Assembly (NCBI RefSeq): GCF_022565915.1
Contig: NZ_JAJOYX010000002.1
Coordinates: 318,293 to 382,292 of the forward strand
From: Nesterenkonia sp. LB17
Lineage (GTDB): Bacteria > Actinomycetota > Actinomycetes > Actinomycetales > Micrococcaceae
DNA length: 64,000 nucleotides
Reading direction: 5' to 3'
The notes beneath the pieces were generated by a model. That model ran no database searches. It was not told the DNA's origin and worked only from the letters and a program-made list of their open reading frames with translations. The translations under genes and the position numbers were made by a program. Positions 52,952-64,000 of this stretch are shown here, piece after piece; the stretch's first letter is position 1; every line of letters starts with the position of its first letter.

Positions 52952-54760
52952 GTGGACACCTGGATCGATCAGTTTCTGGCAGCTTTCCCGGACCGCACGG
53001 ACGTGGCAGACGCAAATTCGACTGCGTTCGACTTCTCGATCGACAGAATAAACATGGCCGGGGGTGAATCGGTCCCAATACAACGAGCCGGCGTCACGGC
53101 TATCGTAGGCTCGAACAACGCAGGCAAATCGACGCTTCTTCGCGAAATCTCGGAGTTGATCTCCCATCGTCGAGGATCAGCCGAACGACCCCGAGTAGCC
53201 GTCGAGTCCCTAAACGTGACTCGACGAGGAACCACTGCGGATGCAATTTCTTGGCTCGGACAGAACGCGAGTTTCGTTGTTCAGGACCATCAATCCGGGT
53301 TTCATCGGGCAGAGACGGGGATACTGGATCCGGCCACCATTCAGTACAACTGGACGCACTCTTCCGCAGGTCTTGGTGGACTCGCGGGATCCGTCGTGTT
53401 CTACGGTGACGCTCAGCGGAGATTTAATATCGGGGGTGCCGCCGAGATGCGTGACTCCCATACGGACCCGCCCGAGCATCCCATCCACTACTTACAGGAC
53501 TCGAAAGAACTTCTCGAGAACGTCAGTGCAATCTCCCAACAGATATTTGGCAAGCCACTGACGTTGGACACTCTGGGTCGAACCATACGCCTACGCGTCG
53601 GCGAGACAGAGATGGAACCACCTAGGATTGACGATATTTCGGCAGAGTATCGAGAGCGCGTAGCCGCCTTGCATCCCCTGGATGCCCAAGGCGATGGTAT
53701 GCGCAGTCTCATGGGACAGCTGTTGCCAATAATTACTGCAGCGTACAAGATTGTCATAATTGATGAACCAGAAGCGTTCTTGCACCCGCCGCAAGCTCAT
53801 GCTCTCGGAGCCGAGCTGGGACGTATTGCCGTAAGTACTGGTCTACAAATAATTGTCGCCACCCACGACCGAAGTTTTTTAACCGGTTTGCTCGACTCTG
53901 GTGTAGATGTTTCAGTAGTTCGGTTGACCCGCGGTGATGGGCCCGCGCGGGGTAGCCGACTCGACTCGAATCAGCTTAGAGATCTTTGGGCGGATCCAGT
54001 GTTGAAGTACACGAATGTACTGGATGGCTTGTTCCACCGATTAGTAGTCGTCGCAGAAGCTGAAGGCGACTGCGCGTACCTCGCGGCTGCAGTGGAGACT
54101 GGTGAGCCGAGGGAAGACAGCGTTCCGCGCAACGAAATTTTGTTTGTTCCAACGGGGGGCAAGGATGGGATGGCCAAGGTCGCAGCGGCGCTAACAGCGG
54201 TAAACGTTCCAGTTGTCGTTGCACCGGACCTGGATATGCTGGCGGATGTATCAAAGCTTAAGGCTCTCGTTGAATCATTAGGTGCCGAATGGACTACTGA
54301 GATGTCTGACGCGTGGCGTCTGGCGACGGTGAACCTCAACACTAGCCGAGAGCCCGCGACTGTTAACGATGTTCTTGTGTCAATAGAATCTGCTTTGCAT
54401 GCGAGTCGCGGAGAGAAGTTCAGTGCTGAGCACAAGAAGACTATAAGTGCGCTTTCCCGCACTAAAGATTCGCCATGGTCTGCCGTAAAAGAGCATGGAA
54501 TGTCTGCTTTTAAAGGTGAATCATACACGGCGGCGCAAAAATTGCTCGCTCTTTTGGATGAGGCTGGAGTGGTGCTTGTCCGCGAAGGGGAGCTCGAAGG
54601 ACTTGCGCCAGAGGTCACCGCAAGGAAAGGGCTGCCTTGGCTTCAAGCTGCTTTGACGGATGGACAGCAGAGTAACCAAGTTACACAAGCACACGTGAAA
54701 AGAATTCTCAATTCCGGAGTGTTTAAAATTAGAAATATTGTGAATAGAGCTGCAGAGTAG
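52952..54760 (+). CDS. OLD-type ATPase with TOPRIM-like nuclease domain
   Basis: A 602-residue protein. The ABC-type ATPase covers residues 40-330: Walker A GSNNAGKST, signature-like QGDGMRSL, Walker B IVIIDEPEAFLHPP and THDRSFL. A TOPRIM-type module follows: LVVVAEAEGDCAYL (metal Glu), then VFVPTGGKDGM and VVVAPDLDML (DxD). This is the OLD/GajA architecture used in phage defence. GTG 52952 is preceded by GGAG. GC falls at its 3' end and codon use is unlike the neighbours, suggesting transfer. There is no GajB-like helicase or AriB next to it, so it is a stand-alone OLD (class 1) protein or a solitary effector. Confidence 0.85.
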   Translation: MDTWIDQFLAAFPDRTDVADANSTAFDFSIDRINMAGGESVPIQRAGVTAIVGSNNAGKSTLLREISELISHRRGSAERPRVAVESLNVTRRGTTADAISWLGQNASFVVQDHQSGFHRAETGILDPATIQYNWTHSSAGLGGLAGSVVFYGDAQRRFNIGGAAEMRDSHTDPPEHPIHYLQDSKELLENVSAISQQIFGKPLTLDTLGRTIRLRVGETEMEPPRIDDISAEYRERVAALHPLDAQGDGMRSLMGQLLPIITAAYKIVIIDEPEAFLHPPQAHALGAELGRIAVSTGLQIIVATHDRSFLTGLLDSGVDVSVVRLTRGDGPARGSRLDSNQLRDLWADPVLKYTNVLDGLFHRLVVVAEAEGDCAYLAAAVETGEPREDSVPRNEILFVPTGGKDGMAKVAAALTAVNVPVVVAPDLDMLADVSKLKALVESLGAEWTTEMSDAWRLATVNLNTSREPATVNDVLVSIESALHASRGEKFSAEHKKTISALSRTKDSPWSAVKEHGMSAFKGESYTAAQKLLALLDEAGVVLVREGELEGLAPEVTARKGLPWLQAALTDGQQSNQVTQAHVKRILNSGVFKIRNIVNRAAE

Positions 54761-54882: not shown

Positions 54883-55464
54883 TTACCCGTCTGGTTGTGC
54901 GCGCTGGAGCTCTCGGTAGATCGTGGCGCGGGAGACATCGAAGAGCTCCGCCAGCTCGGACTGAGTATGAGTTCCAGCTGCATGGGTGGCGAGTAGGTGC
55001 TTGCGCTTCGAAGGTGAGAGCTTGGGCTGCTTCCCACGTAGCCGCCCCTTGGACTTTGCGATCGCCATCCCTTCTCGTGTGCGCGCCCGAATCAGATCGG
55101 CCTCGAACTCGGCCACCATGCCGAGGACGTTGAAGAGCAGTCGGCCCACCGCATCATTTGGATCGTAGAGACTGGCCCCGATGCTCAGCGTCACCCCTTT
55201 GGTGGTGAGCTCGTCAGCGATGTTCCTCGCATCCGGCAGCGACCGGGCGAGTCGGTCGAGCTTGGTCACCACCAGTGTGTCCCCAGAGCGGACGGCGGCG
55301 AGGGCTTCACGGAGCCCGGGGCGGGTTCGGTTGGTGCCGGTGAGTCCGTGGTCGACGTAGACCTGATCGGGGTCAACGCCGAGTCCGATGAGTCCTTCGC
55401 GTTGGGCGGTGAGGTCTTGTCCGGTGGTCGAGACCCGGGCGTATCCGAGCTTCAGTCCAGTCAT
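54883..55464 (-). CDS. Serine recombinase (resolvase/invertase family)
   Basis: A 193-residue recombinase of the Pin/Tn3-resolvase group. Catalytic Ser in GYARVSTTGQD (residue about 12), arginines in LDRLARS and RLLFNVLGMVAEFEADLIRART, and a C-terminal Hin-like helix-turn-helix (THTQSELAELFDVSRATIYREL). Such genes sit alone in actinobacterial islands and promote element resolution or DNA inversion. I did not find a convincing invertible repeat pair or res site next to it. Confidence 0.9.
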   Translation of the reverse strand: MTGLKLGYARVSTTGQDLTAQREGLIGLGVDPDQVYVDHGLTGTNRTRPGLREALAAVRSGDTLVVTKLDRLARSLPDARNIADELTTKGVTLSIGASLYDPNDAVGRLLFNVLGMVAEFEADLIRARTREGMAIAKSKGRLRGKQPKLSPSKRKHLLATHAAGTHTQSELAELFDVSRATIYRELQRAQPDG

Positions 55465-55679
55465 GGTGTCTAGTGTTCCAGATAAGGGACCTTCACAGGG
55501 CTTTTAATCGGGCGGGGTATACGTGCATCCGGAGCCCAGTGTCTGTATGGGCTGGTTTCGGGGTGGGGAAGTGCCCGGTGAGCGACCGGCTTACGGGCAT
55601 TCGTTGAGGGCACCGACTTTCGTGAACGGCAAAGCTTTTCCCTCCCCAAGATCAGTCGGATGCTCACGAGGAGAACCCA

Positions 55680-56588
55680 TTGAACAACGCGAGTGACAAT
55701 CGTTCCGTCTTCGTTGTGCACGGTCGCAATGAGCTGCTCCGAAAATCGATGTTCGACTTCCTACGGAGCATCAATTTGTCACCGATGGAGTGGACATCTG
55801 CCGTTGAGCTCACCGGCGAGGGGTCGCCCTACATCGGGCAGATCCTCGATGCAGCCTTCGACCACGCGACCGCTGTGGTTGTCCTTATGACACCGGACGA
55901 GGTGGCGTACCTGCAGCCTCGCTACGGCAATAGCGACAACGACCAGGAAACTCAGCCTGCGCCACAAGCTCGCCCCAATGTGTTGTTTGAAGCGGGGATG
56001 GCTTTGGGGCGTGACCCCAAGCGCACTGTTCTCGTGGAAGTAGGGGAAGTGCGTCCTTTCAGCGATGTTGCTGGACGCCACGCAATCAAACTATCGAACG
56101 CTCCTGCGACCCGTCAGGCTCTGGCGAACCGGCTTCGAACGGCAGGCTGTGCTGTCGATCTCCATGGTACGGACTGGCACACGAGCGGGGACTTCGCTGC
56201 GCCACCTCCTCCCGGCGACGGCCTCCAACTCGGGCGTCGAATACCAAGCAGCACTACCGCGAGGAAAGCAGTCGACTTCGATCTGAAGTACTTCATTAAG
56301 GGTGGCAATCGTATGGACAAGCTACAGGTGATCAACCGAGGCACGGAGATCGCCTACGACGTCACTCTGGCAGTGCCTGAGAACTCAGCGCTGGATCTGC
56401 GGTCGACCGATGTCGGGCCAATCACGAAGATCCCGGGTGGTGGCCGTTCTGTCACCGTTGACGTCTTCAATACGGGACGCATGCTGTCCGGTTCGCAAGG
56501 GGAGGACGCCTTCGACGTCACCATCACAGCCCGTGCCGAGGGTGGCGAGCAGGTAACCCAGGATGTTTTTCTCGATCTGAACGGATGA
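55680..56588 (+). CDS. TIR-like (CAP12/PycTIR-type) effector with C-terminal beta domain
   Basis: A 302-residue protein. Residues 7-160 match the TIR-like nucleotide-binding domain (VFVVHGRNELLRKSMFDFL, AVVVLMTPDEVAYLQPRYG, and the NADase-type glutamate in RPNVLFEAGMALGRD). A Pro-rich hinge at about 173 leads to a C-terminal beta-rich region (residues 200-302, DKLQVINRGTEIAYDVTLAV, then FDVTITARAEGG), Ig-like or CARDB-like by eye. TIR effectors of this type deplete NAD+ on phage infection when triggered by a sensor. TTG 55680 has GAGGAG seven bases upstream. Its stop overlaps the next gene as ATGA. Confidence 0.8.
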   Translation: MNNASDNRSVFVVHGRNELLRKSMFDFLRSINLSPMEWTSAVELTGEGSPYIGQILDAAFDHATAVVVLMTPDEVAYLQPRYGNSDNDQETQPAPQARPNVLFEAGMALGRDPKRTVLVEVGEVRPFSDVAGRHAIKLSNAPATRQALANRLRTAGCAVDLHGTDWHTSGDFAAPPPPGDGLQLGRRIPSSTTARKAVDFDLKYFIKGGNRMDKLQVINRGTEIAYDVTLAVPENSALDLRSTDVGPITKIPGGGRSVTVDVFNTGRMLSGSQGEDAFDVTITARAEGGEQVTQDVFLDLNG

Positions 56589-57061
56589 TGACGATGGATG
56601 ATGAGTTTCAAATTCCGGTGAGTCTGCCACTCGACAGTGACGGCTTCCTGCGTCGCGAGTGCCCAAGCTGCGAACGGGAGTTTAAGTGGTTCAGTCACGC
56701 CGAGGACGATGAGAATGCCGAACTTGTCGCGCAATACTTCTGTCCACTATGTGGTGTCGCAGCAGGTTCCGATTCATGGTGGACCCACGCGCAGCTTGAG
56801 TACGGCTTCGGCAGCGCTAGTGGGGCGATTGACCAGGCTGTACAGGATAGTTTGGCGGACGCATTCAAGGGCATCAAAGGCATGAAACTTGAGCCCAACT
56901 CGTCATTCAGCCTTGATTTTGAGACCCCAGCTGCATTGGTCGAGCCCGACGACATGGTTATCGTCGAACCGCCCTGCCATCCCAATGAGCCGGTGAAGGT
57001 CCCTGAAGCTTCCGCGGAACGTGCTTTTTGTCTGATCTGCGGTGCACAGTTCGCAGCGTAG
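56585..57061 (+). CDS. Zinc-ribbon protein coupled to the TIR-like gene
   Basis: A 158-residue protein with three CxxC pairs: CPSC (residues about 26-29), CPLC (about 54-57) and CLIC (near the C-terminus, before GAQF). It therefore has two or three metal sites and an acidic linker between. The opening is DEFQIPVSLPLDSDGFLRRE. Family not recognised beyond zinc ribbon. Start ATG 56585 overlaps the TIR stop by 4 nt, so the two are translationally coupled, which argues for a shared pathway such as sensing, regulation or a defence partner. Confidence 0.75.
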   Translation: MMTMDDEFQIPVSLPLDSDGFLRRECPSCEREFKWFSHAEDDENAELVAQYFCPLCGVAAGSDSWWTHAQLEYGFGSASGAIDQAVQDSLADAFKGIKGMKLEPNSSFSLDFETPAALVEPDDMVIVEPPCHPNEPVKVPEASAERAFCLICGAQFAA

Positions 57062-57423: not shown

Positions 57424-57802
57424 GCTGGGATTCCTGTCTGTTTGGGCTCTAGCTGCTCGAACCCATTCTGAGTGGCGCCCTTCACCATACGGGTCTGCTG
57501 TGGCAGCTTCACCCGATGTTGTCGTTCTCGTGGCGCTTCGTGTCGTGGTTACGTAGCGTAAAGCCGATCGTCTTCCGGGCGGCCTGCACATCTCGCAGGG
57601 CCGATTGGTCTGGGGTGGATGCGGAGCGCCCGACTTAGCCTGGGCGTATGGATCTCTTCTTTTGGTCGCGGTACCGTTCCTCGTCATGTTTACCGCCACT
57701 TGGTTCCCGCTGAGGGCGTTCGTTCGACGGAATGCCACTCAGGTGCGGTGAGGGATCCTCTTGCGGGGCCCAGTTCAGTGCTGTGGCTGGCACACTGGCC
57801 GC
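57424..57802. other. No convincing gene
   Basis: About 380 bp between the small minus-strand gene and the ATPase. No clear promoter, hairpin or reading frame. Confidence 0.35.
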
Positions 57803-58525
57803 ATGGCCTTCGAGCGGTTCCCAATCCGAAGACTCACCGAGAATCCGTCCAACATACTTGATCGGCAGAGTTGGCCGGCGACGTTGGCGCCTGTTGCGAC
57901 GATCCTTGATCACGGACTGGATCTTGGCTTAGCTACGGTTCTGGTGGGTGAGAACGGGTCCGGTAAGTCGACCATCATCGAGGCAATCGCGTTAGCCTAC
58001 GGGCTCTCCCCCGAGGGAGGCTCGACCGGAGCCCAGCACACCACGCGTTCTACAGAGTCGGTACTCGCGGATCACCTCCACGTGGTCCGCAACGCCGGCG
58101 CTACCCGACGCGGATACTTCCTCAGAGCCGAAACCATGCATAGCTTCTATACCTACCTCGAGTTGAACCCCAGCACGAGCCGGGCGGACGTTCCTTTTCA
58201 CGAGATGTCCCACGGTGAATCGTTCCTCGAACTCGTGGGTGATCGGTTTCGCGGTTCGGGTCTGTGGGTCCTCGATGAGCCAGAATCAGCACTGTCCTTC
58301 TCTGGTTGCCTGGCGTTGCTCAGCGTGTTGAAAGAACGCGTGGCGGCTGGGGATTCACAGGTGATCCTTTCGACGCACTCACCGCTACTGGCTGCCTTGC
58401 CCAATGCGCAGATCCTCGAAGTGGGCAGTTGGGGTCTGCGTCCTCGACAGTGGGAGGATCTCGACCTGGTCGCGAGCTGGCAAGCTTTCCTCGCTTCGCC
58501 CGAGCGCTACCTGAGACACCTCTAG
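57803..58525 (+). CDS. AAA family (RecF/ABC-like) ATPase
   Basis: A 240-residue protein opening MAFERFPIRRLTENPSNI. Walker A VGENGSGKST, signature-like MSHGESFLEL, Walker B GLWVLDEPESALSFSG and switch ILSTHSPLLA. Stand-alone actinobacterial predicted ATPases of this type are common, with no proven role. Near 58.0 kb it is next to other island genes and could be a resident gene or a defence partner. ATG 57803 fits the family start. Confidence 0.85.
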   Translation: MAFERFPIRRLTENPSNILDRQSWPATLAPVATILDHGLDLGLATVLVGENGSGKSTIIEAIALAYGLSPEGGSTGAQHTTRSTESVLADHLHVVRNAGATRRGYFLRAETMHSFYTYLELNPSTSRADVPFHEMSHGESFLELVGDRFRGSGLWVLDEPESALSFSGCLALLSVLKERVAAGDSQVILSTHSPLLAALPNAQILEVGSWGLRPRQWEDLDLVASWQAFLASPERYLRHL

Positions 58526-58907: not shown

Positions 58908-60050
58908 CTAGCTCATGGACTGTTCCGGTTCGGTCGAAGACAGATGGTTCAGCGTGAGATCGATGAGGTCTACGAGGTCCTGGGCTGAGACGCGTGAGAA
59001 ATCGATGTCGCTAATTGCTTGGAACCTCAGTGCACCGTCACCGTAGAACGCCGGTGTGGTTCTGCGTCGCGTGTTCCTGCCGCCGTCCTTCATTGGGGCT
59101 CCTTTGAGGCCGTGGACTATGACGGCTTCCCAATCGCCCCGTGCTGTCGGACGGCTAGATTTCCCTCGGGACAGCGCTTCTCCGAGGTCAGAACGATCCT
59201 CCGTGAGTCGGACGTGGAGAGCCTGGTGGTCGATGTCGTGCTCCATGCTGTGGGCTAGGTCGTATGCGGCGCGGCGGACTTCCTCGTCTTCTTTATGCCC
59301 CGGGCGAGGGTCGAAGTCCACGCCGAAGCGCAGTTCACCTCCGGGCTTGTTGTCCCGCCATCGGACCTCGGCGATGAAGGTTCGATCCTCGCCTTCGCCT
59401 CGGATCGGGGCCCACGCCTTGATAATCGGAAGGCCGCCACCGCTGGTCACCCCAGCGACGGCCATGTACCCACGTGAGTGGAGCTCCTTCACAAGACGCC
59501 GGGTGACGACACGGGCGAGGAACTTCTGCTTCAACTCATCGAGTTGCAAGCCACCTTCGGCTGCGCCAGTCTCGAGCACCCCAGAGATTATTCGGTCCCA
59601 TTCCTTCAAGAGCGTGGCTGCCTCACGCGCGAGGGAGCGTGCGAGCTCGTCCTGAGAAGACTCCCATCCGCTGAACAGACTGCTCAGACTCAAGAACTTC
59701 CAGCGGTCGGAGACCTCTGATAAGCGCACCTCATCTGCGCCGAGTGCCGCCAGGTAGAGATCGAGATCCGGATCCAACGCTTCGTATTTGTCTTGCTGTT
59801 GGGCAGACATCAGATGGCCAAGCTTCACTTCAATTACTGCGCTCTTCGAGCCGGCGGTAAGCAAAAGGTCGGCGTTGTTAGCGGCAGATACCTCCCGAAC
59901 GAGGTCGTCTGGGACGAACCCGACGAGTGGTTCCCAAGGGGCCGGGTCACGGTCACTCAGGAACTGAATGAGGTCTGACACGTTGGTCTCTTGGGCCAGA
60001 AGGCGTTCGAGTCCTCTTCCACGCACCCATGGTGCTCCGGTTCTCTCCAT
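58908..60050 (-). CDS. PD-(D/E)XK nuclease superfamily protein
   Basis: A 380-residue protein. NADLLLTAGSKSAVIEVKLGH with Asp, then ExK, and QQDKYEAL is the PD-(D/E)XK core at residues about 59-90. The rest, with a Trp-rich motif (RDPAPWEPLV) and mixed alpha/beta composition to the C-terminus, is not recognised. Such proteins occur as restriction-like enzymes in actinobacterial islands. It is a single gene, transcribed towards the ATPase. Confidence 0.75.
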   Translation of the reverse strand: MERTGAPWVRGRGLERLLAQETNVSDLIQFLSDRDPAPWEPLVGFVPDDLVREVSAANNADLLLTAGSKSAVIEVKLGHLMSAQQQDKYEALDPDLDLYLAALGADEVRLSEVSDRWKFLSLSSLFSGWESSQDELARSLAREAATLLKEWDRIISGVLETGAAEGGLQLDELKQKFLARVVTRRLVKELHSRGYMAVAGVTSGGGLPIIKAWAPIRGEGEDRTFIAEVRWRDNKPGGELRFGVDFDPRPGHKEDEEVRRAAYDLAHSMEHDIDHQALHVRLTEDRSDLGEALSRGKSSRPTARGDWEAVIVHGLKGAPMKDGGRNTRRRTTPAFYGDGALRFQAISDIDFSRVSAQDLVDLIDLTLNHLSSTEPEQSMS

Positions 60051-60489: not shown

Positions 60490-60719
60490 TGACTTACCTC
60501 CCGTCGCTTAAATAGATTCGAGTACCAGTACTGCCTCTGTCTCGATCCGAGTGGATCCGTGAGGGCGGTGGCCGCCGACTTTGCTGACCGCAGCCTTGTA
60601 TTGACCAAGTTACTCGTATACAGTGATTCACACAAGGGGTGACGAGATGAAGCCGAGTAATTGAGTGGTTGATAGGCTAGCGTGGACCTGGCGCTATTCG
60701 GCTGGGTTAGGTGGATCTG

Positions 60720-61019
60720 TTGCGCATCGCCTTTGAAGATGACGAGCTTCGACGGATGGCTGAGGATGCTGCCTACGCACCAAAGCGGTGGGGTCCAGAG
60801 CTGGTTAGGGCCTACCGACGGAAAATTCAGGTACTTCACGCGGCTTCTGACGAACGTGATCTGCGCGCGATGCGTTCCCTCCGACTGGAGCAGCTCAGGG
60901 GGGACAGAGCTGAGACGTCTTCTATCCGAATCAACAAGCAGTTCCGACTTATCATCAGGTTCAGAACCGATGACGATGGGCGCGTCGTGACCGTCATTGA
61001 AATGGTCGACTACCACTGA
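60720..61019 (+). CDS. higB: HigB/RelE-type toxin
   Basis: A 99-residue protein (MRIAFEDDELRRMAEDAAYA, then LRAMRSLRLEQLRGDRAETSSIRIN, QFRLIIRFRTDDD). The RelE/HigB fold and the basic residues in RSLRLEQLRG fit a ribosome-dependent mRNA endonuclease. TTG 60720 is preferred because AGGTGG lies five bases upstream, and in-frame GTG 60711 is the alternative. It precedes higA by 14 bp, as expected for the inverted higBA order. Confidence 0.85.
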   Translation: MRIAFEDDELRRMAEDAAYAPKRWGPELVRAYRRKIQVLHAASDERDLRAMRSLRLEQLRGDRAETSSIRINKQFRLIIRFRTDDDGRVVTVIEMVDYH

Positions 61020-61033
61020 GAGAAGGTGAAGTC

Positions 61034-62137
61034 GTGAGCACTCCGATCATGGCGGAGGCATTTCCGGCAGGGGAGCACCTTGCTGAGGAGCTTGAGGCGC
61101 GTGGGTGGACCCAGGCTGATTTCGCCGAGGTGCTGGGGCGACCGACGCAGTTCGTGTCCGAGATCATCTCCGGCAAGAAGGAAATCACTCGGGAGTCTGC
61201 GGCACAGATCGCGGCAGCCTTGGATACCTCGGTTGAGTTCTGGTTGAGCCTTCAAGACTCCTACCTGCTCTGGAAGCAATCCCAGAACGCGCAGACCCGT
61301 GAGAATCTTGATGCGGTCAAGATGCGCGCGCAGCTACGAAAAAAGGCCCCAATCTCGCTGCTCCGGAAGCGTGGGTACATCAAGGCCACGGACCTTGAGG
61401 GTCAGTCGCGTGAGGTCGATCGTCTCCTCGGAGAAACTGTGCCTTTAAAGTGGGCGGCTCGGCGGAGCAATGAGGACGAGACAGTTACTGTCCTACAGCG
61501 CGCCTGGGTCGCCTGCGTGAAGCTGAGTGCCACCTCGCTCACCGTCCCGACCTACGACCGTGAGGCCTTTGAGAATCTTGCCTACAAGCTCTCGGGGATG
61601 GCTTGTGAGCCGGAGGCGTTCTCAGATTTCCAAGCTTTGTTCGCCGAGGTCGGAGTGAAGCTCGTCTACGTGGAAGCTTTCCCTGGCGGCAAGCTCGATG
61701 GTTGTGCAATGTCGGTGGACGGGACGCCAGTCATAGGGATCTCGGGGCGCGGCAAGCGACTCGATATTGTCCTATTCACGATCCTGCACGAAGTCGCACA
61801 CGTCCTTGAAGGTCACCTAAACGACGACGGAGTGCCGATCCTCGACGACCTCAAAAGTAGCGACGTAAAGGATGCCACCAAGAGTGAGCTCGATGCGGAA
61901 GGAAAGGCCGATCAACTCGCTAGCGTTCTCGCCATACCGGGTGATCTCCCCGTCATCCCTGAACGCGTGAGTTCCTCATGGGTCCGTGCGCAGGCGGAAC
62001 AATTAGGTGTACACCCCATCGTTGTCGTTGGTCGGCTTCAGAATGGTGGGCGTTTGTCGTGGAAGACAACGCTGGTGCGTGATGCACCGACTGTGACGGC
62101 ACACATCGAGCGTTGGGCCGCATTGAGTCCAGTCTGA
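61034..62137 (+). CDS. higA: HigA-type antitoxin fused to an ImmA/IrrE metallopeptidase domain
   Basis: A 367-residue protein. Residues 14-77 are the HigA HTH (HLAEELEARGWTQADFAEVLGRPTQFVSEIISGKK). Residues about 200-300 are an ImmA/IrrE-type peptidase domain with the zinc motif HEVAHVLEGH (TILHEVAHVLEGHLND), then a helical C-terminus. Such fusions are known HigA variants that may self-cleave or be processed to release the toxin under stress. GTG 61034 with RBS GAGAAGGTGAA. It precedes the methyltransferase genes, so the higBA module may protect or regulate the restriction system. Confidence 0.88.
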   Translation: MSTPIMAEAFPAGEHLAEELEARGWTQADFAEVLGRPTQFVSEIISGKKEITRESAAQIAAALDTSVEFWLSLQDSYLLWKQSQNAQTRENLDAVKMRAQLRKKAPISLLRKRGYIKATDLEGQSREVDRLLGETVPLKWAARRSNEDETVTVLQRAWVACVKLSATSLTVPTYDREAFENLAYKLSGMACEPEAFSDFQALFAEVGVKLVYVEAFPGGKLDGCAMSVDGTPVIGISGRGKRLDIVLFTILHEVAHVLEGHLNDDGVPILDDLKSSDVKDATKSELDAEGKADQLASVLAIPGDLPVIPERVSSSWVRAQAEQLGVHPIVVVGRLQNGGRLSWKTTLVRDAPTVTAHIERWAALSPV

Positions 62138-62341: not shown

Positions 62342-62989
62342 ATGAGCCTCAAGGAGGCAGAGAGCCTGGTCAAGTCCAAGCAGCGGGTCGCCGACCACGG
62401 TGAGGTATTCACACCCGCATCGATGGTTGTGGAAATGTTGAACCTTGTGAAGGGTGAAACAGGACGTATCGACGCGCGGGTCCTGGAGCCGGCATGCGGC
62501 TCGGGAAACTTTCTGGTTCCGGTTCTGCTTCACAAGCTCGTCACCGTGCAAGTCAGGTACGGTAAGAGCCAGTTCGAAAAGCGGCATTACGCCCTATTTG
62601 CACTGATGTGCACCTACGGCATTGAGCTTCTGTCCGACAACGCGCAGGAGTGTCGTGACAATCTCTGTGCCGTGTTCAACAGCTTCCTGGACGTCGACAG
62701 GGACAACGAATGGGCGCGAGTCGCCCGCTGGGTCCTTGAGGCCAACATCGTCCAGGGCGATGCGTTGACCATGACTCTCCCCGATGGTGAACCGATCACC
62801 TTCCCTGAGTGGGGATATCTCGGTAAAGGTAAGTTTCAGCGTCGGGACTTTCGCTACGCAGATCTCACGCAGCGGGCCTCGTTCGAGGGGACCTTGTTCG
62901 GAGAGATCGCTGAAGAAGACCTTTTCACAGCGGTTCGAACTCACCCGATCATGACTGTTCACCAGATCGCCAAGCAGGTGGCCATATGA
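62342..62989 (+). CDS. DNA adenine methyltransferase, SAM-motif subunit
   Basis: A 215-residue protein. Motif I RVLEPACGSGNFLVPVLLHK, a motif II-like YGIELLSDN and GDALTMTLPD follow the N-6 adenine-specific methylase order, but there is no NPPY (motif IV) anywhere in the protein. It opens LKEAESLVKSKQRVADHGEVFTP, the usual N-terminal region of restriction-modification M subunits. RBS AAGGAG at five bases. Its stop overlaps the next gene by 4 nt, so the two probably make one enzyme. Confidence 0.82.
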   Translation: MSLKEAESLVKSKQRVADHGEVFTPASMVVEMLNLVKGETGRIDARVLEPACGSGNFLVPVLLHKLVTVQVRYGKSQFEKRHYALFALMCTYGIELLSDNAQECRDNLCAVFNSFLDVDRDNEWARVARWVLEANIVQGDALTMTLPDGEPITFPEWGYLGKGKFQRRDFRYADLTQRASFEGTLFGEIAEEDLFTAVRTHPIMTVHQIAKQVAI

Positions 62990-64000
62990 GTCAGGCGCCC
63001 TTGGCGCTTCAGGCCTATAACCCCGATGTCCTGACCTGCATTGCCAACCTTTCCAACGATGAGGTCTTCACCCCGCCCGAGATGGCCAGCAGGATGCTTG
63101 ACGTGCTTGCCACGGCCTGGGCGGAGGCTAACCACGGTGCCGATCTGTGGGCTGACCCCACGGTGACCTTTCTTGACCCGTTCACCAAGTCCGGCGTCTT
63201 CCTCCGCGAGATCGTCCGCCGTCTTACCGAGGGTCTGACCCCCACAATTCCGGACCGAGAGCAGCGTGTGGACCACATCCTCACGCGGCAGGTCTATGGC
63301 ATCGCCATCACGGAGCTAACGGGATACCTCGCCCGACGCAGCGTCTACTGCTCCAAGTACGCCAACGGGCCGCACTCGGTGGCCCAATCTTTCACCACAG
63401 AGAACGGGAACATTTGGTTCCAACGCACCGAGCACACCTGGGGCGGCGGCAAACGCGAGTTCTTGACGGATTCGCTCACCGGTGAGGAGATCGCCGTCTA
63501 TGCCAAGCGGAGGTGTACATACTGCGGGGCCGGTGAAGAAGACTATGGGCGTGGCAACGGGTTAGAAACCCATGCTTACGCTCTCATCCACACAGACGAC
63601 GCCAAGGCTCGCATTGCTGAGCTGTTCGGAGAAGACATGCAGTTCGACGTGATCATCGGTAACCCCCCGTACCAGCTCAGTGACGGCGGGCATGGCTCTT
63701 CAGCGGCCCCGATCTACCAGAAGTTTGTGGAGAAGGCCCTCGAGCTCGACCCCCGATTCGCGGTTTTCGTCACCCCCTCACGCTGGTTCGCCGGCGGGAA
63801 GGGGCTTGATGAATACCGCAGGAGAATGCTTGGCGACCACCGCATGAAGAGCATTGTCGACTACCCCAAGCTCTACGAAGCCTTTCCTGGAGTAAAGATC
63901 CGAGGTGGTGTGTCTTATTTCCTCTGGGATCGCGACTACAACGGCCCCTGCACCATCCAAACAATATGGGACGGCCAGCCGGTCGGCGACCCCGTTTCTC
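62986..64000 (+). CDS. Eco57I-like methyltransferase subunit (NPPY-bearing), partial
   Basis: Runs off the window end (338 codons seen). ATG 62986 lies inside the upstream stop. It starts with a second FTPPEMASRMLDVL region and a degenerate motif I FLDPFTKSGVFLREIVRRL (DPFTKSG for DPACGSG). It then has a Cys-rich zinc-like insertion CTYCGAGEEDYG and the intact motif IV FDVIIGNPPYQLSDGG, followed by YQKFVEKALELDPRFAVFVTP. It resembles the Eco57I-type restriction-modification methylase domain proteins. A helicase or endonuclease is expected downstream, outside the window. Confidence 0.85.
   Translation, partial: MSQAPLALQAYNPDVLTCIANLSNDEVFTPPEMASRMLDVLATAWAEANHGADLWADPTVTFLDPFTKSGVFLREIVRRLTEGLTPTIPDREQRVDHILTRQVYGIAITELTGYLARRSVYCSKYANGPHSVAQSFTTENGNIWFQRTEHTWGGGKREFLTDSLTGEEIAVYAKRRCTYCGAGEEDYGRGNGLETHAYALIHTDDAKARIAELFGEDMQFDVIIGNPPYQLSDGGHGSSAAPIYQKFVEKALELDPRFAVFVTPSRWFAGGKGLDEYRRRMLGDHRMKSIVDYPKLYEAFPGVKIRGGVSYFLWDRDYNGPCTIQTIWDGQPVGDPVS

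Follow-up and report, generated by a model that had tools for sequence, protein, structure and literature searches.

A TIR-domain protein with a C-terminal beta-sandwich and its double zinc-ribbon partner in Nesterenkonia sp. LB17: a possible two-gene defence module

Described TIR systems and the TIR-ear locus

TIR proteins that cleave nicotinamide adenine dinucleotide (NAD) act once a trigger clusters them, as SpbK does on phage portals (excerpts of PMC12847820). TIR-STING (CAP12; SfSTING), of the cyclic oligonucleotide-based antiphage signalling systems (CBASS), forms filaments with cyclic di-GMP; excerpts of its description (PMC9402430) name R78, N80, E84 and D110 as active-site residues, with D110 completing the site of the adjacent TIR. 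We describe here a pair of adjacent genes in a 64,000-nucleotide stretch of the Nesterenkonia sp. LB17 genome (contig NZ_JAJOYX010000002.1, positions 318,293 to 382,292; the window). One encodes a TIR protein, predicted to be an NAD-cleaving enzyme (NADase), with an ear-like beta-sandwich at its C-terminus, designated TIR-ear; the other encodes a protein with two zinc ribbons. We give an even chance to the reading that this pair is a two-gene TIR NADase defence module in which the TIR is controlled by the zinc-ribbon protein.

The TIR-ear gene (55680..56588, + strand) encodes 302 residues from a TTG start, four bases 5' of which lies a GGAGAA resembling a ribosome-binding site (55670..55675, +). 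The zinc-ribbon gene (56585..57061, +) encodes 158 residues. Both open reading frames (ORFs) had been marked in a first-pass annotation, made from the sequence alone, and were confirmed at these positions. The four-base overlap it described (ATGA) holds if the zinc-ribbon gene begins at its first ATG; it does not hold if the third ATG (56594) is the start, which gives 155 residues and a spacing of +5 bp rather than -4. The database copy P0001 (155 residues) and many zinc-ribbon homologues of similar length start where the third ATG lies. In 45 rows compared, two of them duplicates, 41 gaps between the TIR and zinc-ribbon genes fall between -11 and +13; larger negative gaps in the other four (L023, L026, L027, L031) probably reflect first-start ORFs that begin too early.

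The TIR domain (residues 8-155; 55701..56144, +) is matched by PF10137 over residues 10-139 with 89.4 bits against a curated Pfam cut-off of 24.7, the sole Pfam match in the protein, and its nearest solved fold is the TIR of SfSTING. A predicted NAD-cleaving motif, R98-P-N100-V-L-F-E104 (55971..55991, +), has the spacing of R78, N80 and E84 in SfSTING, and D129 (56064..56066, +) is a candidate counterpart of D110 at approximately the expected distance; these four correspondences were drawn by spacing rather than by residue-level alignment. All four residues are invariant in the 63 rows of alignment A6, and E104 is present in 94 of the 96 proteins of a beta-domain search, the remaining two being gapped at that position. 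The glutamate that the first-pass annotation singled out in RPNVLFEAG is therefore conserved, the NADase site is intact as predicted from the sequence, and TIR-ear would be expected to cleave NAD. The TIR is followed by a linker (residues 156-195; 56145..56264, +), modeled partly at low confidence (predicted local distance difference test, pLDDT, below 50 at residues 186-193), and by the ear-like beta-sandwich (residues 196-302; 56265..56585, +), where we propose that the zinc-ribbon protein docks. A C-terminal beta domain had been annotated earlier, and the predicted model bears it out, with strands at residues 200-299.

TIR-ear thus shares with TIR-STING its predicted TIR fold, active-site spacing and membership in PF10137. 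The two differ in that the beta-sandwich stands in place of STING and in that TIR-ear has a zinc-ribbon partner. No STING domain follows the TIR, since PF10137 is the only Pfam match and the C-terminal part is predicted to be a beta-sandwich. A Pfam scan of six neighbouring genes found no cyclase, and the genome has no SMODS nucleotidyltransferase (PF18144), the one cyclase family searched for genome-wide; the earlier statement that a cyclase is lacking stands within these bounds. With neither a STING domain nor a SMODS nucleotidyltransferase here, the trigger probably enters by another route. In SpbK of Bacillus subtilis the phage portal is bound by the protein's own N-terminal domain, whereas here we propose that a second protein exerts control. 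Thoeris (ThsA/ThsB) is similar in placing a TIR protein within a two-gene unit. TIR-ear has no Pfam match to ThsB_TIR, and among the six neighbours there is no SIR2, macro or ThsA-like gene.

Two candidate systems in PADLOC come closer in their parts. PDC-M14 (M14A plus M14B) likewise consists of two adjacent genes, and the zinc-ribbon protein belongs to its M14A family (model PDLC04447, E=5e-18, residues 4-154 on model positions 1-149 of 152). However, the TIR gene lies upstream here, while M14B lies downstream in the three loci where we saw it. PADLOC found no M14B match in TIR-ear or five neighbours, and the genome has no match to PDLC04448, one of the six M14B models. TIR-ear matches the C-terminal part of five models of PDC-S35 (best E=2e-19), the best match covering only model positions 114-259 of 264; those models carry some 80-130 positions ahead of the matched part that are absent here, and the extra domain of TIR-ear comes after the TIR. 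Both proteins, then, score on existing models for candidate defence genes, and the parts of the pair are not unknown. The first-pass annotation had proposed a possibly undescribed module with a partner that is not a known sensor. Our literature searches, judged by titles and the beginnings of abstracts, found no description of the pair. The partner is not wholly unfamiliar, however, given its match to PDC-M14A and the matches of the TIR to PDC-S35 models.

Conserved pairing and its link to the beta domain

A pattern scan of species-representative contigs yielded 45 zinc-ribbon loci. In 35 of them the gene directly upstream, in the same orientation, encodes a PF10137 TIR, and three of these TIR genes are broken (L014, L032, L035). 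The ten without an upstream PF10137 TIR are L033 and L038-L046. Zinc-ribbon relatives occur in 11 of 72,556 plasmid records, seven of which, comprising all the actinobacterial ones, have an upstream TIR with a beta domain. With identical copies removed, 43 loci encode a TIR and a beta domain in one ORF beside a zinc ribbon. The first-pass annotation had staked its proposal on a conserved neighbour relationship and on the TIR glutamate, and both are kept.

The zinc-ribbon profile was also applied to three sets of 394, 396 and 251 genomes, with some genomes sampled twice, and prevalence proved low. At the class level there were matches in 5 of 394 genomes: three with a PF10137 TIR, one with no clear effector (G047), and one short remnant (G246) with no TIR in 9 kb. 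The phylum sample gave matches in 7 of 396 genomes, namely G000, two beside AbiJ-like proteins, two beside M14B, a partial match in G481 and a weak one with a stop codon in G604, neither of the last two with a sensible partner. Matches in 4 of 251 genomes from the phylum of G754 comprise a Ymh pair, two kinase loci and one fusion.

Two loci are unusual in other respects. A single zinc-ribbon gene sits between two TIR genes, the second C-terminally truncated, at L015:4954-7210. Locus L011, on a contig filed as Vibrio cholerae 35D, holds the pair otherwise found in actinobacteria and is possibly a contaminating contig.

The association can also be counted from the TIR side. A search with the TIR alignment, its profile built mostly from zinc-ribbon-linked TIRs, gave matches in 8 of 394 genomes of the class and in 39 of the 392 genomes of a set built around one from Streptomyces; the counts that follow cover 39 loci with flanks of about 1.5 kb, nine further Streptomyces-centred matches lying outside them. 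The beta domain is present in seven TIRs, of which six adjoin a zinc ribbon (L089, L090, L091, L098, L099, L100). L089 is the window and L098 the centre genome, both present by construction; leaving them out gives four of five. L090, L091 and L100 are identical copies of pairs found earlier from the zinc-ribbon side, or of their genomes, and L099 is new. By comparison, a zinc ribbon adjoins none of 31 distinct TIRs that lack the beta domain (L102 repeats L092). Against this 0/31, Fisher's test returns 2.5e-6 for six of seven and 8.5e-5 for four of five, values that are not proper probabilities because the loci are related and the profile derives mostly from zinc-ribbon-linked TIRs. The exception, L101, also new, is an intact beta-domain TIR without a zinc ribbon (L128:5976-6866, - strand), and a 12-kb stretch retrieved for that locus holds none.

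Pairwise distances for the beta domain and the zinc ribbon correlate at 0.936; the partial correlation is 0.58 with TIR distances removed, against 0.28 between TIR and zinc ribbon once beta-domain distances are removed. Furthermore, no beta domain was found in 25 loci whose zinc ribbon has another partner or none. Because of the TIR-first counts, the distance correlations and this absence elsewhere, the beta domain is likely the docking site for the zinc-ribbon protein, to which TIR-ear would physically bind.

The mechanism we propose is as follows. TIR-ear would be an NAD-cleaving TIR of the CAP12 kind, inactive while its TIR domains stay unassembled, whose beta-sandwich, in STING's place, would bind the double zinc-ribbon protein. 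Upon infection the latter would recognize a phage protein or nucleic acid, as the most likely cue, and gather TIR-ear molecules, so that the TIR domains could stack, cleave NAD+ and stop the cell. Of the two sensors that the first-pass annotation allowed for in an abortive-infection module, beta domain and zinc ribbon, our data point to the former as the place of docking and to the latter as the regulator. Defence against phage, and the direction in which the signal runs, are our reading of these sequences.

The same docking arrangement would serve a toxin-antitoxin pair, in which the zinc ribbon binds the beta domain to restrain a constitutively active TIR, and its loss or sequestration, by infection or plasmid loss, frees the enzyme. 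The layout, with a small partner gene directly 3' of a predicted toxic enzyme, also on plasmids, would suit this alternative, as would the zinc-ribbon ORF that persists beside each of the three broken TIR genes, expected if the toxin is lost first. L101, with its intact beta-domain TIR standing alone, is a mild argument against an obligatory antitoxin. Judged by sequence, the zinc ribbon might activate the TIR or restrain it; with the partners described below also weighed, we regard the toxin-antitoxin reading as rather unlikely and an infection sensor as the more likely role of the zinc ribbon.

The beta domain might instead sense the cue itself, with the zinc ribbon merely a folding or scaffold subunit. 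It is the fastest-changing part of the pair (mean identity 37%, against 67% for the TIR and 53% for the zinc ribbon), as is common in sensing parts. However, the zinc ribbon appears to have a job of its own, since it also accompanies partners with no detected beta domain, both in the 25 loci above and in the TIR_2 fusions described below, and we judge this alternative very unlikely.

The double zinc-ribbon family and its other partners

The zinc-ribbon protein matches no Pfam family above its cut-off, yet its own family is large, with 874 of 899 candidates scoring at E<=0.01. The three CxxC motifs of the first-pass description are real but incomplete: Cys131-His132 forms a fourth ligand pair, giving two complete zinc ribbons, as the homologue alignment and the predicted model both indicate. 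Ribbon 1 (C26, C29, C53, C56; 56642..56767, +) is followed by two inter-ribbon helices in the predicted model (residues 68-94; 56786..56866, +) and by ribbon 2 (C131, H132, C149, C152; 56945..57055, +). The model, with a mean pLDDT of 79.7, shows a ribbon, the helix pair, a low-confidence stretch and the second ribbon. Among the best 120 of the 874 homologues, C26, C29, C53, C56, C131 and H132 are kept in all 120 and C149 and C152 in 119, one row being gapped. The ORF is not a chance one, because ligand conservation is so strong. Distant members can lose ligands; Asp replaces C152 in L039, and H132 is not invariant in alignment A5.

The family has a variety of partners. In L042 the zinc ribbon is fused ahead of a TIR_2 domain; 23 such fusion proteins were found, TIR Pfam domains being listed for all, and the zinc-ribbon part of 19 aligns profile to profile with the window family at an hhalign probability of 100. 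A Ymh (PF09509) protein lies just downstream of the zinc ribbon in L033 and L039, an Abi_C/AbiJ-like protein overlaps it by 4 bp in L062 and L063, and PDC-M14B lies downstream in L064, L066 and L078. Three loci (L077, L079, L081) encode fusions with RHLL(S/A)H in the C-terminal part, which we take to be a HEPN-type motif, with no supporting match to a Pfam HEPN family. On the archaeal plasmid of L080, the protein upstream of the zinc ribbon matches PDC-S05 and resembles phospholipase-D by eye only, its Pfam search being empty. In L043-L046, L075 and L076 the zinc-ribbon gene and a protein kinase gene are convergent, with ORF ends that abut or overlap; the kinases of the last two were recognized by eye. 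A GGDEF protein lies downstream in L038, and no clear effector is seen in L040, L041 and L050/L060. Excerpts of PMC3710099 describe fusions of zinc ribbons with certain HEPN proteins, and a type of zinc ribbon that precedes AbiJ-NTD5/TIR proteins. Zinc ribbons near such effectors are therefore known in general, without implying that they belong to the family described here.

On a tree of 59 zinc ribbons with ten partner labels, one of them "none", there are 11 label changes, against a minimum of 9 and an average of 25.3 in shuffles. PF10137 TIRs and TIR_2 fusions occupy separate parts of the tree. Stars mark only 9 of its 56 inner branches, and several of its rows are long; single placements are therefore unsure. 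Because of the low number of changes relative to shuffles, exchange of partners seems to have been rare, each partner being retained once acquired. Fusion and partner exchange suit the role of the zinc ribbon as a control subunit. In other lineages its family would have been enlisted to control further effectors, among them a different TIR and HEPN-type proteins. The zinc-ribbon relatives beside HEPN-type proteins are also in keeping with an antitoxin, while the 23 one-chain TIR_2 fusions suit a regulatory domain at least as well. More broadly, and tentatively, at somewhat less than even likelihood, the double zinc ribbon could be a general infection-sensing control protein for at least six kinds of effector (the ear-domain PF10137 TIR, the fused TIR_2, HEPN-type proteins, M14B, kinases and possibly the archaeal phospholipase-D-like protein), with one principle of trigger recognition serving several two-gene defence systems that look unrelated.

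Genomic surroundings and significance

Across the window G+C content falls from 67.5% (first 30 kb) to 59.2% (last 16 kb), a drop that suggests that the pair sits in an acquired island. To the left of the TIR gene lie an OLD-like ATPase (52952-54760, +; PADLOC Old, E=2.8e-20, with a Pfam OLD-like TOPRIM match below cut-off) and a serine resolvase (54883-55464). To the right are a short AAA protein (57761-58525), an adjoining protein of 380 residues with no Pfam or NCBIfam match (58908-60050, -), and a small ORF that is HigB-like by eye followed by a protein that passes the NCBIfam cut-off for HigA (60711-62137, +), the latter protein also matching PADLOC PD-Lambda-2_B (E=4.7e-30). A methyltransferase-like ORF (PADLOC MTase_II, E=2e-8) belongs to a region at 62342-63999 that continues right of the window into L129:20-7080, where a large ORF is helicase-like by eye. 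GmrSD_N, Mrr_cat and TniB are matched above Pfam cut-offs right of the window, the TniB-like ATPase lying at L129:10926-13997 with neighbours that resemble TniQ and TniA by eye. The methyltransferase-like, helicase-like, GmrSD_N and Mrr_cat genes form a restriction-type cluster, which shares the putative acquired island with the pair. Because of the TniB-like ATPase, its TniQ/TniA-like neighbours and the serine resolvase, the island may be a Tn5053/Tn7-like transposon with defence cargo.

Enrichment of the pair in defence islands, which the first-pass annotation proposed as a check, was gauged roughly. At a threshold of 1e-12, 74 sampled neighbours (of 236 genes in 34 loci) match 53 PADLOC models, against 7 models for 74 control genes from ten stretches. 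This measure counts models rather than genes. Of the neighbour models listed, none matches more than two genes and many represent variants of a single family (RmrA, MTase_III); in the control set individual models match as many as three genes (mad3, mad8). Because models were counted and many are family variants, the difference at the level of genes may be small.

These surroundings bear on whether the pair serves defence at all. It occurs on plasmids, and here in an island with transposon genes, as might be expected of genes that help to maintain a plasmid or island, or that take part in a stress response of NAD metabolism. Related zinc ribbons, however, pair with Abi_C/AbiJ-like and Ymh proteins, and the excess of candidate defence models near the pair, rough as it is, points the same way; we consider a role outside defence highly improbable.

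TIR NADases need a signal of the presence of a virus, the source of which is not known for many bacterial TIRs. In this pair the signal probably comes from a second protein of some 155 residues, whose size allows direct study, with natural fusions and one natural exception available for comparison. The ligand of the zinc ribbon, once found, could explain several candidate systems together, including PDC-M14, and would also show how defence effectors are exchanged while the control part stays the same. The PF10137 TIR-ear protein and its zinc-ribbon partner travel together in many actinobacteria, and that partner may be a reusable control switch for defence against viruses.
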